In this document: one piece after another, positions 7,355-11,036 of the stretch | Layout of the letters: every line of letters begins with the position of its first letter | Position numbering within the stretch: position 1 is the stretch's first letter | Assembly: GCA_017434555.1 (NCBI GenBank) | Contig: JAFRFB010000045.1 | Location: 1-49,507, forward strand | Length of the DNA: 49,507 nucleotides | Origin: Methanobrevibacter sp. | Lineage (GTDB): Archaea > Methanobacteriota > Methanobacteria > Methanobacteriales > Methanobacteriaceae | Direction of reading: 5' to 3' | Program-made: the position numbers and the translations under genes | The notes under the pieces: generated by a model | Database searches by the model: none | What the model saw: the letters and a program-made list of their open reading frames with translations, nothing else | What the model was told of the DNA's origin: nothing

Positions 7355-8140
7355 ATGATAGAAAAGTCCATTTATGAAGATTATGAAATCGATTTCAGCG
7401 ATACATACACAAGCGATGATGCATATTATTTCATTTTTAATGATAATAGAGAGTTATTATTAGATAATAAAGAATTGATTAAAGATATTTCTGATTTAAA
7501 AGTTAATTTTTCACTATATATCGGAAAATATAAATCCAAGGACTGTTTTGTAGTAAACGCTGATTTTAAAGAAGGTTTTGATTTAAGAGAAGTCTATGAA
7601 TTTAACCATGATTTATATCTGATGGGCACAAAAGCTGTTTTAGTCAACGATTGGTATATATCACACAAATTTTGCGGAAGATGTGGAGCAATGACTCAAG
7701 TAGATGAAAAGGACATGATGTTAAAATGCCCAAAATGCGGTCAAGTGCACTATCCACGAATCGCTCCTGCAATTATTGTAGCCATTAGAAATGAGGACAA
7801 ACTTCTTATGGCACAGCATTCATATCACGATAGCATAAGATATGCCCTGATTGCAGGTTTTGTAGAGCCTGGCGAGTCAATAGAAGAAGCCGTTCACAGA
7901 GAAGTTTTAGAAGAGGTAGGAATCAAAATTAAAAATTTAAATTATAAAAAAAGTCAATCCTGGCCATTTCCAAACTCACTTATGCTTGCCTTTGAAGCCG
8001 AATATGAATCCGGCGAGATAAAAGTTGACGGAGATGAAATAGTAAAGGCAAAATGGTTTAAAAAAGATGAAATAATCAGATATGCCTCAGACATCAGCAT
8101 ATCCGATTGGCTGATTCAGGAATTCATTGACAATCATTAA
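7355..8140 (+). CDS. nudC: NADH pyrophosphatase NudC-type Nudix hydrolase
   Basis: A 261-residue protein with the complete NudC architecture: an N-terminal domain, a zinc ribbon with C107, C110, C125 and C128, and a Nudix domain with the G-x5-E-x7-RE-x2-EE-x-G box at residues 168-190. The NudC-specific SQSWPFPNS signature follows at 200-208, which separates this subfamily from other Nudix enzymes. It hydrolyses NADH (and in some organisms NAD-capped RNA) to NMNH plus AMP. Little room exists upstream for a ribosome binding site, so a leaderless or short-leader transcript is likely. The stop codon overlaps that of rhuM on the other strand. Confidence 0.93.
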   Translation: MIEKSIYEDYEIDFSDTYTSDDAYYFIFNDNRELLLDNKELIKDISDLKVNFSLYIGKYKSKDCFVVNADFKEGFDLREVYEFNHDLYLMGTKAVLVNDWYISHKFCGRCGAMTQVDEKDMMLKCPKCGQVHYPRIAPAIIVAIRNEDKLLMAQHSYHDSIRYALIAGFVEPGESIEEAVHREVLEEVGIKIKNLNYKKSQSWPFPNSLMLAFEAEYESGEIKVDGDEIVKAKWFKKDEIIRYASDISISDWLIQEFIDNH

Positions 8141-9108
8141 TTATTGTCTTTTAAAATCAATCTGGATTGTTCATCAAAACGATTGTAATCTGAAATGTAA
8201 TTTTTATCCTGAACCGGTTTGAACTTATCAAATTCTTCTTTTACAAACTCATCAACAGCTTTTCTGGAAATACTTCCCTTTCCATGCAAGATTTGATATT
8301 CGTTGAATTCTAAAAATTTGTCTAAACGAGAAGCCCAATCCTTCATAGACATTGCTTTTTGCCTTAAAGCCAAATTCTCAGCATAATCCAAATACATATT
8401 AACAATTCGATTAAGTTCAGAAATCTCTTCTTCAGACAAATAGTTTTTAGCTACTTTAGCATCACTCAACATAATTTTACCATTAGGAGCATCCTTCCAG
8501 GTAGTTAATCCCATATGTTCCATTTCACTGTTAGCCCGTTCTTTAATGATTTCTGGAGGAGTTAAACCTGAAATTGCATAATGTAATTTAGATTGAACAC
8601 ACTTGTAGAAATTAATAGTTATTTCGGCTTTTGGATTATAATCATATGATGTGGCGAAAAGATCAGTCACCTTTTCATACACTCTCCTTTCAGATGATCT
8701 GATTTCTTTAATTCGCTCAACAAGTTCCGTGAAATAATCCTTACCAAAACGGGAACCATTTTTTAAAAGTTCATCATCTAAAACGAAACCTTTAATCATG
8801 AACTCTTTTAAAACACTTGTAACCCATATTCTGAAGCGTATTGCATTTTTAGAGTTGACTCTATATCCCACAGAGATAATAGCATCCAAATTGTAAAAAG
8901 TTTGATTACGTTTTACTTTACGATTTCCTTCAGTTTGAACTGTCAAAATTTTTTTGACAGTTGAATTTTTTTCTAATTCTCCAGTTTTGAAAACATCACT
9001 AAGATGATATGAAATATTTTGTTTTGAAACATTGAACAAATCAGCCATTGTTTTCTGTGTAGCCCACATAGTCTCCCTTTCATGGTCAATAATAACATCT
9101 ATTGACAC
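8137..9108 (-). CDS. rhuM: RhuM family protein, 5' end separated by an in-frame stop
   Basis: A 323-residue RhuM/virulence-associated protein. The N-terminal region (WATQKTMADLFNVSKQNISYHL) is the helix-turn-helix-like segment of the family, followed by NLDAIISVGYRVNSKNAIRFRIW, its most conserved block. Function is unknown; family members often sit in restriction-modification or mobile regions. The start here is a GTG that comes directly after a TAA stop. Upstream and in the same frame are 18 more codons with a strong ribosome binding site that look like the normal RhuM N-terminus (see 9109-9165). The protein is therefore either made by termination-reinitiation, lacking about 19 residues, or the gene is decaying. 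No restriction-modification genes are nearby. The stop codon overlaps nudC. Confidence 0.82.
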   Translation of the reverse strand: MSIDVIIDHERETMWATQKTMADLFNVSKQNISYHLSDVFKTGELEKNSTVKKILTVQTEGNRKVKRNQTFYNLDAIISVGYRVNSKNAIRFRIWVTSVLKEFMIKGFVLDDELLKNGSRFGKDYFTELVERIKEIRSSERRVYEKVTDLFATSYDYNPKAEITINFYKCVQSKLHYAISGLTPPEIIKERANSEMEHMGLTTWKDAPNGKIMLSDAKVAKNYLSEEEISELNRIVNMYLDYAENLALRQKAMSMKDWASRLDKFLEFNEYQILHGKGSISRKAVDEFVKEEFDKFKPVQDKNYISDYNRFDEQSRLILKDNN

Positions 9109-9165
9109 TTATCCTTCTTCACCAATATATAATAAAGTATTTTGTATTTGACACTCTTCTTTCAT
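9109..9165 (-). other. Detached rhuM 5' segment ending in TAA
   Basis: From the ATG at 9165 the frame reads MKEECQIQNTLLYIGEEG, then TAA (9111-9109), then continues in the same frame into GTG-TCA-ATA of rhuM. An AAGGAG ribosome binding site (9174-9179, minus strand) is 8 bases before this ATG, the best-placed signal in the region. RhuM proteins normally begin with a stretch like this ending in EDGK before the next strand, so the stop probably replaces a single residue such as Lys (AAA to TAA). Confidence 0.7.
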
Positions 9166-9851
9166 TTAATTTTCTCCTTATTTTTTTAATTAAATGCGAT
9201 TAATAATTTAAATATCCTATTATATAAACTTTATTTATGAGTTAGAGCAATATTTATCACATAAGGAAATATTTATGAGTTAAAACAATTTTTATGACTC
9301 AAAGCAATTTTTATAAGTGAGAACAATTTTTATGAGTCAAAGCAATTTTAGTGGATTGTTGATTATTCAATTTTGAATTGTTTTTATAACCAATTTTTTC
9401 AGAAAAAAAGATTAACTTGAATGAGTCCAAATTCCATGAAGATAAATACAAGTGGTTTACTCATTTAATATTAAACTATTAAACTATTTTTTAACTAATT
9501 ATTTTAAAATTAAAGAAAAATTAGGCTGATTTTTGTCAAATCGAAACTAAAGTGTAAAAAAATTAAATTGAAAAAAACCTATAAAACTTTACAGACTCAA
9601 TTTTCTAAAAGATTTTACCAAATATTTTTCAAGACAAAAATCAATTTAGATTACTCACCAACAAATTATAATCAAATGAAATTTTATTTTATAATTAAAT
9701 CTTTCGAACAACAGAAATTAGTAATACCCATATACTCGGACAATAATTATTCATGAACAGAAAAATAATCTTAAGATATAAATAATTTGAACAATATAAA
9801 ATATTTGGGTTAATAAAATTTAATTCGACTTACTGCTTAGGAGTAAAAAAA
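9166..9851. other. AT-rich intergenic region between rhuM and the F420 ligase-like gene
   Basis: The only gene-free stretch over 300 bases. It contains the rhuM ribosome binding site and TATA box (TTTATATAAT on the minus strand, about 9221-9231), the 19-bp repeat array (9234-9347), then roughly 430 bases of very AT-rich sequence. A 62-codon frame from a TTG at 9568 has no ribosome binding site and low-complexity composition, and is not counted as a gene. The right end holds a TATA-like box (AATATAAAATATT, about 9793-9805) and the AGGAG site of the next gene. Confidence 0.6.
9234..9347. repeat. Six tandem 19-bp repeats beside the rhuM promoter
   Basis: Six consecutive units of exactly 19 bases start at 9234, 9253, 9272, 9291, 9310 and 9329, with consensus TTTATGAGTCAAAGCAATT. 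Unit 2 (TTTATCACATAAGGAAATA) is the most divergent; units 3-6 differ from the consensus at only 0-4 positions. There are no spacers, so this is not a CRISPR. The array ends a few bases from the rhuM TATA box, the position of an upstream operator. A TGASTCA-like core appears in several units. Function is inferred. Confidence 0.85.
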
Positions 9852-11036
9852 ATGAGATGTGTTGGTACTGTAGTACGTGGTATAAGAACACCAATTATTA
9901 AAGAAAATGATGATTTAGCTACAATAGTTGTAGATTCACTAATGGCTGCAAAAGAAAGCGAAGGATTCGAATTTAGGGACAAAGATATAGTTGCAATTAC
10001 CGAAGCGGTTGTAGGAATTTCAGAAGGAAATTACGTAACCGTTGACGATGTTACCAAAGATGTTGAAAACAAATTTCCATCCAAAAACATAGGAGTTGTA
10101 AATCCTATTTTAAGTAGAAACAGATTTTCAATTATCCTAAAAGGTATCGCAAGAGGAATGGACAAAATTACATTATTAACATCATTCCCTGCAGACGAAG
10201 TAGGAAACGGTATTTTAGATGAAGAAATCTTAGAAAAAAGTGAATACCATTTAGGAAGTGTCATTTCAGAAGACGAATACAAAGAAACTTTCGGCTCATG
10301 GATTCACCCATTCACAGGCATTAACATGATCGATTTCTACAGAGAATTAATCGAAAGCGAAGACTGTGAAGTCGAATTCGTATTTTCCAATGACGTAAAA
10401 ACAATTCTAGATTACAACAAAGATATTTTAACCTGTGACATCCACACAAGAGAAAAAACCGTAAAATTACTAAAAGACCTTGGAGCTAACGTATACGGAT
10501 TACACCAAATCCTAACCGAACCAATTGGAGACTCAGGTTCCAATCCAGATTACGGATTACTCGGATCCAACAAAGCAACAGAAGAAAAATTAAAACTATT
10601 CCCAAAAACAGGCGACAAAGTAGTCAGAGAAGTACAAAAAAGATTAATCGACCTAACCGGCAAACAGATTGAAGTAATGGTTTACGGAGACGGCGCATTC
10701 AAAGACCCTGTTGGAAAAATCTGGGAATTAGCAGACCCTGTTGTATCACCAGCACATACTGACGGATTAATAGGAACTCCAAACGAAATCAAATTAAAAT
10801 ACGTTTCAGATAATAAATTCGCTGATTTAAAAGGCGATGAATTAAAAGAAGCTATCAAAGAAGAAATCAGAACCAAAGATAAAGACTTAACTGGACAAAT
10901 GATTACCGAAGGAACAACACCAAGAGTATTAACCGATTTAATCGGTTCTCTATGTGACTTAACCAGCGGTTCCGGAGATAAAGGAACTCCAGTTATATTC
11001 ATCCAAGGATATTTCGATAATTTAGCAAATGACTAA
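9852..11036 (+). CDS. Coenzyme F420-0:gamma-glutamyl ligase domain protein
   Basis: A 394-residue protein of the F420_ligase (CofE-like) family. Its N-terminus (RTPIIKENDDL, DKDIVAITEAVVGISEGNYV) and the GDGAFKDPVGKIWELADPVV block match that family. It is longer than standard CofE (about 250 residues), belonging to the extended version found in methanogens and some bacteria. Classic CofE adds L-glutamates to F420-0 with GTP. Whether this version does so, or uses another glutamate acceptor, is unknown. AGGAG about 8 bases upstream of the ATG supports the start. Monocistronic; a T-rich terminator follows at 11049-11062, shared with the convergent aminotransferase. Confidence 0.75.
   Translation: MRCVGTVVRGIRTPIIKENDDLATIVVDSLMAAKESEGFEFRDKDIVAITEAVVGISEGNYVTVDDVTKDVENKFPSKNIGVVNPILSRNRFSIILKGIARGMDKITLLTSFPADEVGNGILDEEILEKSEYHLGSVISEDEYKETFGSWIHPFTGINMIDFYRELIESEDCEVEFVFSNDVKTILDYNKDILTCDIHTREKTVKLLKDLGANVYGLHQILTEPIGDSGSNPDYGLLGSNKATEEKLKLFPKTGDKVVREVQKRLIDLTGKQIEVMVYGDGAFKDPVGKIWELADPVVSPAHTDGLIGTPNEIKLKYVSDNKFADLKGDELKEAIKEEIRTKDKDLTGQMITEGTTPRVLTDLIGSLCDLTSGSGDKGTPVIFIQGYFDNLAND

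Follow-up and report, generated by a model that had tools for sequence, protein, structure and literature searches.

What is the function of six contiguous 19-bp repeats lying beside the promoter of a rhuM gene in a Methanobrevibacter genome? The window, by which we mean the whole 49,507-nucleotide stretch of DNA that was analysed, is contig C58 of genome G000, a 3.15-Mb assembly. The repeats occupy positions 9234..9347 on the plus strand with no spacers, and their units begin at 9234 (TTTATGAGTTAGAGCAATA), 9253 (TTTATCACATAAGGAAATA), 9272 (TTTATGAGTTAAAACAATT), 9291 (TTTATGACTCAAAGCAATT), 9310 (TTTATAAGTGAGAACAATT) and 9329 (TTTATGAGTCAAAGCAATT), exactly where the original prediction had placed them; unit 2 is clearly divergent. 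Variation among the units had been ascribed mostly to a core resembling TGASTCA, and this core does vary, but the varying positions (6, 8, 10 and 12-14) go beyond it. The array has a lag-19 identity of 0.74 and a lag-38 identity of 0.83, compared with a lag-19 mean of 0.28 in the window and a maximum of 0.51 outside the array; the best lag-19 value among 300 first-order Markov sequences of 5 kb was 0.59. An 18-mer consensus matched the window seven times, against 1.3 matches expected from shuffles (largest shuffle, four), and an Rfam search of positions 8100-10000 gave no match, even at E<=5. From its sequence and from the genome- and genus-wide family to which it belongs, we propose that the array serves as an operator or upstream activating sequence.

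Facing rhuM, 5 bp from the edge of the array, lies the TATA-like box that had been foreseen there (TTTATATAAT; 9219..9228, minus strand), and an outward-facing TATA box in this position recurs in the array family. The intervening spacer TAAAG (9229..9233, minus strand) occupies the position expected of a BRE and may act as one. On the same strand, a Shine-Dalgarno-like AAGGAG (9174..9179) precedes the natural rhuM start codon, ATG (9163..9165), the residue at which the alignment of relatives begins. Codon 19 is an in-frame TAA (9109..9111, minus strand), at a place where E, A or K stands in those relatives whose start can be aligned; therefore the listed open frame of 323 aa (8137..9108, minus strand; PF13310, E 2e-105) starts at a GTG right behind a stop. 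An AAGGA is found just upstream of this GTG. The rhuM of the window, one of the targets of these arrays, is likely to be truncated or re-initiated. RhuM matches PDC-S05 among the PADLOC candidate defence families. The opposite edge of the array has no TATA box close by, and the first long gene beyond it on the plus strand begins at 9852; the window array would serve one promoter, that of rhuM.

Across the genus, 17 of the 27 rhuM promoters show 19-bp periodicity (counted where lag-19 identity was >=0.55), compared with 1.2% of 246 control promoters, and the orientation of the array is conserved among them; rhuM is therefore a conserved target. Upstream of rhuM in other species the 19-bp period persists with the unit shifted to TTACAAAGTNARARCAATW.

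The array is also a member of a much larger family, since arrays of two to nine copies of the window-type unit are found at dozens of Methanobrevibacter promoters. A consensus search of the other contigs of G000 revealed arrays in the identical 19-bp register, among them one of six units at C53:3828-3941 and others of three units on C80, C82 and C81. A truncated transporter-like gene (L011:3414-3839; by eye resembling a sodium:amino-acid symporter) ends at the C53 array. A 31-mer spanning a unit junction, with <=3 mismatches allowed, was present in 11 of 67 genomes of the genus, the reversed control being found in none. We then used two sequence models, R1 for two units and R3 for the rhuM-upstream variant with the shifted unit; both were trained on arrays that they later recover and their E-values are rough, and at E<=0.01 R1 matched 37 and R3 62 of the 67 genomes, R1 with at most 17 matches per genome. 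The genomes that R3 did not match are G006, G025, G026, G061 and G066. When 17 genera (139 genomes) of the taxonomic family were compared, R1 at E<=0.001 was confined to Methanobrevibacter, and R3 at E<=1e-4 to two genera, its own and g9. When 84,980 species, each represented by one genome, were scanned for the exact pattern, only Methanobrevibacter matched, with M. millerae SIG13 among the matches. Single-unit matches within ORFs (L013, L017, L020) are judged to be chance. Inside single genomes one array type is common to several target promoters. Our literature search found no description of such arrays.

Arrays of this family are located at promoters. Ninety-four of the 95 distinct arrays with readable neighbours lie outside ORFs, and among these 95 the flanking genes are divergent in 36 cases and convergent in 10 (p 1.6e-4), the latter including several arrays at the non-coding RNA locus discussed below. 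A TATA box within 40 bp is present at 42 of 98 array edges, compared with 14% of AT-rich control 40-mers; counted by array, 36 of 49 possess such a box on at least one side. These outward-facing boxes cluster 1-11 bp from the array edges and take recurrent forms which, read outward, are TAGTATTTATAG and AAAAAGTATTTATA at the left edge and AGCTTTAAATAG and AGTTAAGCTTAAATAG at the right. Many arrays therefore look like one operator for two divergent promoters.

Each genome possesses a private unit consensus: CTTAGGAGTGAGGACAATT in G003, TTTATCACTTAAAACAATT in G022 and TTTATSAGTNAGAACAATT (TTTATSAGT) in others. Units of one genome lie at a mean distance of 5.3 from each other and those of different genomes at 6.0, a difference that 5000 permutations of the labels never reached (p<1/5000); since recent duplicates (such as the Rpn-like loci of G022) favour likeness within a genome and orthologous loci across species should oppose it, this p-value is indicative. 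Such a pattern would be expected if the sites track one trans-acting DNA-binding protein.

The genes next to the arrays recur in families. The largest promoter-proximal cluster consists of Rpn-like proteins (n=12), recognized by reading the sequences and having no Pfam match; RhuM (PF13310), six Bro-N proteins (PF02498) and a cluster of six small winged-helix-like proteins, the last read by homology to a 74-aa protein, recur as well. Four targets of approximately 430 aa are RNA ligase-like, an assignment made by motif only (nucleotidyltransferase-like KLDGTC). RNA ligase-like genes are divergent from arrays in four genomes (L112, L138, L155, L156), and the L112 copy has no match in Pfam, NCBIfam or among solved structures. 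Further targets are DUF4325 with a partner gene, DUF2828+DUF7788, DUF2264, DUF4013, DUF3800, TnpB, an ADP-ribosylglycohydrolase, part of a DNA polymerase B, topoisomerase VI B and a few metabolic genes. Sequence searches of NCBIfam and of solved structures with the target proteins returned almost nothing. Taken together, these targets may point to functions in mobile elements, nucleic-acid processes and stress. The DUF2828+DUF7788 protein, which we presume may be TROVE/vWA-like, is encoded downstream of arrays at L014:5460-6956 (G000) and L111:2171-3676 (G003); together with the RNA and the ligase-like gene, it hints at RNA handling. By reading of sequences, Cas2-Cas1-like genes were seen beside arrays, or one gene away, at L027:2506-3031 (G016:C66) and L030:1609-2787 (G027:C80).

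The winged-helix-like proteins (L143:4165-4389, L086:1-155; L234, L238, L277) are 74 aa long or occur as a 200-aa form with a homologous domain; their genes have an array directly upstream in several genomes and are patchily distributed, with several copies in G016. In G000 (C95) the array lies about 90 bp upstream of the gene for the 74-aa protein, and G016 has a homologous locus that likewise carries an array. This protein was considered as the regulator and rejected, the family being present in just 22 of the 67 genomes and missing from the array-rich G004, G005, G022 and G027; it is therefore probably another target.

One predicted target is an RNA. Nine sampled genomes have an array close to where the valyl-tRNA synthetase gene ends (3'), and 35-36 bp downstream of this array lies a conserved structured RNA of about 200 nt; the single copy in G000 is at L012:4610-4808 (G000:C80:15609-15807, minus strand). 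Its fold has two hairpins, the 5' one being GACATC..GATGTC, and a long closing helix (GGGTGAGAT/ATCTCACCC), with single-sequence folding energies of -45 to -59 kcal/mol. Ten of 35 pairs show a two-sided change in at least one instance; the support from covariation is moderate, because two sequences align imperfectly at the 3' end and the covariation term is small. From seven sequences we built a covariance model, which found a single copy per genome in ten genomes (E 9e-24 to 3e-51) and no copy in the 129 others. The RNA locus of the tenth genome, G027, belonged to neither training set, and there the RNA lies 35 bp beyond an array of three units. Transcription would be expected to start about 25 bp after the TATA box, close to the first hairpin. 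An Rfam search with this RNA gave no match, even at E<=5. Also on contig C80, near a TnpB gene, is a group II intron match (RF00029, 49 bits; L012:6874-6951, minus strand).

From these data it is probable that the arrays are multi-site operators or upstream activating sequences for a putative sequence-specific DNA-binding protein other than RhuM, which would control a genus-wide regulon. The original prediction was of a cooperative operator for RhuM or another DNA-binding protein. The operator part is supported, and extended, by arrays that adjoin TATA boxes at many promoters of the genus and follow a genome-specific consensus; the part concerning RhuM is not supported. Autoregulation, in which RhuM protein would bind its own array, draws on the position of rhuM next to the window array, on the HTH which had been predicted in RhuM, and on the oriented, periodic arrays at the 17 rhuM promoters. 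Against this, dozens of array-bearing promoters have no rhuM; the same array at many loci without rhuM, the very finding that had been named as fatal to the idea, was looked for genus-wide and found. Intact RhuM is missing from six array-bearing genomes, three of them (G001, G005, G052) having no RhuM match, and G018 and G035 only broken rhuM pieces. In the sixth, G003, there are 17 array matches with 39 units, the most of any genome sampled, and a coherent private consensus, yet only fragments of rhuM. G003 is 99% complete; G005 (89%) and G052 (86%) are incomplete, so that the missing RhuM there counts for less than the rhuM fragments of G003, and the array of G001 is solely the two-unit one of an integrase module. 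The rhuM of the window is itself interrupted at codon 19. The genus-wide distribution of PF13310 and of the window protein relative to the arrays led us to reject RhuM as a necessary factor. The arrays are independent of RhuM, its role as their binder is unlikely, and an autoregulatory operator we regard as highly improbable.

There are two further rival readings. The repeats could be iterons left by a plasmid or virus, as had also been suggested, or similar remnants of an integrative element, kept by copying. In many genomes (L220, L222, L225-L228, L237) a two-unit version with fixed flanks (ATGATTAGCCA, two units, TTTCACACTCGTACAACTTTT) does lie downstream of a gene resembling a tyrosine integrase, and TnpB genes are near some arrays. 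Nevertheless, searches of 72,556 plasmids, 50,697 phages and viral contigs yielded no match, the neighbours are mostly ordinary chromosomal genes rather than replicon or initiator genes, and neither element borders nor target duplications were seen. Orthologous promoters in several species carry arrays (the ValRS/ncRNA, DUF4325, RNA ligase-like, Bro-N and Rpn-like loci), and the arrays take on the unit consensus of the host genome. We therefore hold this origin to be very unlikely. The repeated integrase module implies that a mobile element either captured such sites or donated them, and capture is favoured by the wide range of orthologous promoters on the chromosome that carry arrays. Equally improbable is a non-regulatory array, either an AT-rich, satellite-like sequence or a cluster of T-run terminators (CAATTTTTAT in each unit). 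The AT-rich units, their number ranging from 2 to 9, and the location of some arrays directly after a gene end (an acetyltransferase in L012, with a gap of 10) would fit such a sequence. Drifting satellites, however, would not be expected to have outward TATA boxes at a fixed distance, orthologous promoters, a private consensus and near-restriction to Methanobrevibacter. The excess of divergent over convergent neighbours is the opposite of what terminators would give, several of the convergent cases being the RNA locus, and an intrinsic terminator array was rejected on this orientation census, the arrays not being placed mainly at the 3' ends of converging or preceding genes.

In the operator model one protomer or dimer would occupy each 19-bp unit ([TC]TTATSASTNARRACAATT in the window clade and TTWCAAAGTNARARCAATW elsewhere in the genus), and the head-to-tail packing at slightly less than two helical turns would allow proteins to fill the array cooperatively, side by side. 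If a helical repeat of 10.5 bp per turn is assumed, the 19-bp pitch misses two full turns by approximately 70 degrees, and the bound proteins would follow a slow spiral along the DNA. The filled array would adjoin the BRE/TATA, 1-11 bp away, and could contact or recruit TBP/TFB as Ptr2 or EarA do; alternatively, a repressor would exclude TBP/TFB. One protein could in this way control dozens of promoters in the genus, a single array often serving a divergent pair, with a regulon that would include rhuM, Bro-N, Rpn-like, RNA ligase-like, DUF2828/DUF7788, DUF4325 and small winged-helix genes and, in ten genomes, the RNA.

As to the direction of control, we consider activation somewhat more probable than repression. 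Repression by the same kind of operator, the filled array blocking TBP/TFB or RNA polymerase, is a sub-case that overlaps the main explanation and is a tentative possibility in its own right. Arrays almost touch the TATA box, and Bro-N, RhuM and Rpn-type genes are presumably of a kind often kept silent. At the winged-helix loci L234, L238 and L277 the array stops 12 bp before the start codon, downstream of the expected place of the TATA box, which fits repression better than activation. The majority of arrays, on the other hand, lie upstream of the BRE/TATA, where known archaeal activators sit (PMC2995911, PMC10665913).

With the operator model as a basis, one might go further and imagine a stress, DNA-damage or anti-parasite regulon of Methanobrevibacter, in which one master regulator reads the 19-bp arrays and integrase elements have tapped in, an analogue in its logic of the bacterial SOS or a defence regulon. 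Its promoters would be those of the Rpn-like nucleases, Bro-N/RhuM, the RNA ligase-like protein, the DNA polymerase B C-terminal protein, topoisomerase VI B, DUF2828 and the structured RNA. This extension is speculative and, on present evidence, unlikely.

Methanobrevibacter is a major methanogen genus of the rumen and the human gut. To our knowledge methanogens have few known global regulators, and for Methanobrevibacter a literature search found none. The arrays point to a shared, putative regulator of many genes and to a previously undescribed RNA, which should be transcribed from the array element. They offer a ready-made bait for purification of the regulator together with a list of targets, and the genome-specific consensus makes regulator-operator co-evolution testable inside one genus.

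How do these arrays compare with known systems? Plasmid and viral iterons are tandem direct repeats of about 19-22 bp that are bound by an initiator, whereas the present arrays are dispersed at chromosomal promoters, with no adjacent replication gene and no plasmid or virus match. Closer in organization are two archaeal regulatory systems, with which the arrays share repeated sites at a constrained distance from the BRE/TATA and a site common to several promoters of one genome. At the archaellum promoters of Methanococcus and Thermococcales, EarA binds the motif A(C/G)(C/G)TACA(T/C), of which as many as three copies lie a fixed distance upstream of the BRE (PMC10665913). The likeness lies in a short motif repeated adjacently at a fixed distance from the BRE; the Methanobrevibacter arrays differ in being contiguous 19-bp units in two to nine copies, of another sequence, at many unrelated promoters and often between divergent pairs. 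The EarA motif is absent from both strands of the unit consensus, TTTATSASTNARRACAATT. The Lrp-type proteins Ptr2 and Ss-LrpB bind next to the BRE/TATA and activate by aiding TBP/TFB (PMC2995911); here the likeness is a site in a constrained position, a few base pairs upstream of the promoter, with further upstream sites that allow cooperative assembly, and the proposed recruitment of TBP. Unlike these operators, the arrays have no Lrp protein linked to them, and while the sites of Ptr2 and Ss-LrpB are dimer sites, few per operator, the Methanobrevibacter units are direct, head-to-tail and non-palindromic, and form longer arrays at many promoters.
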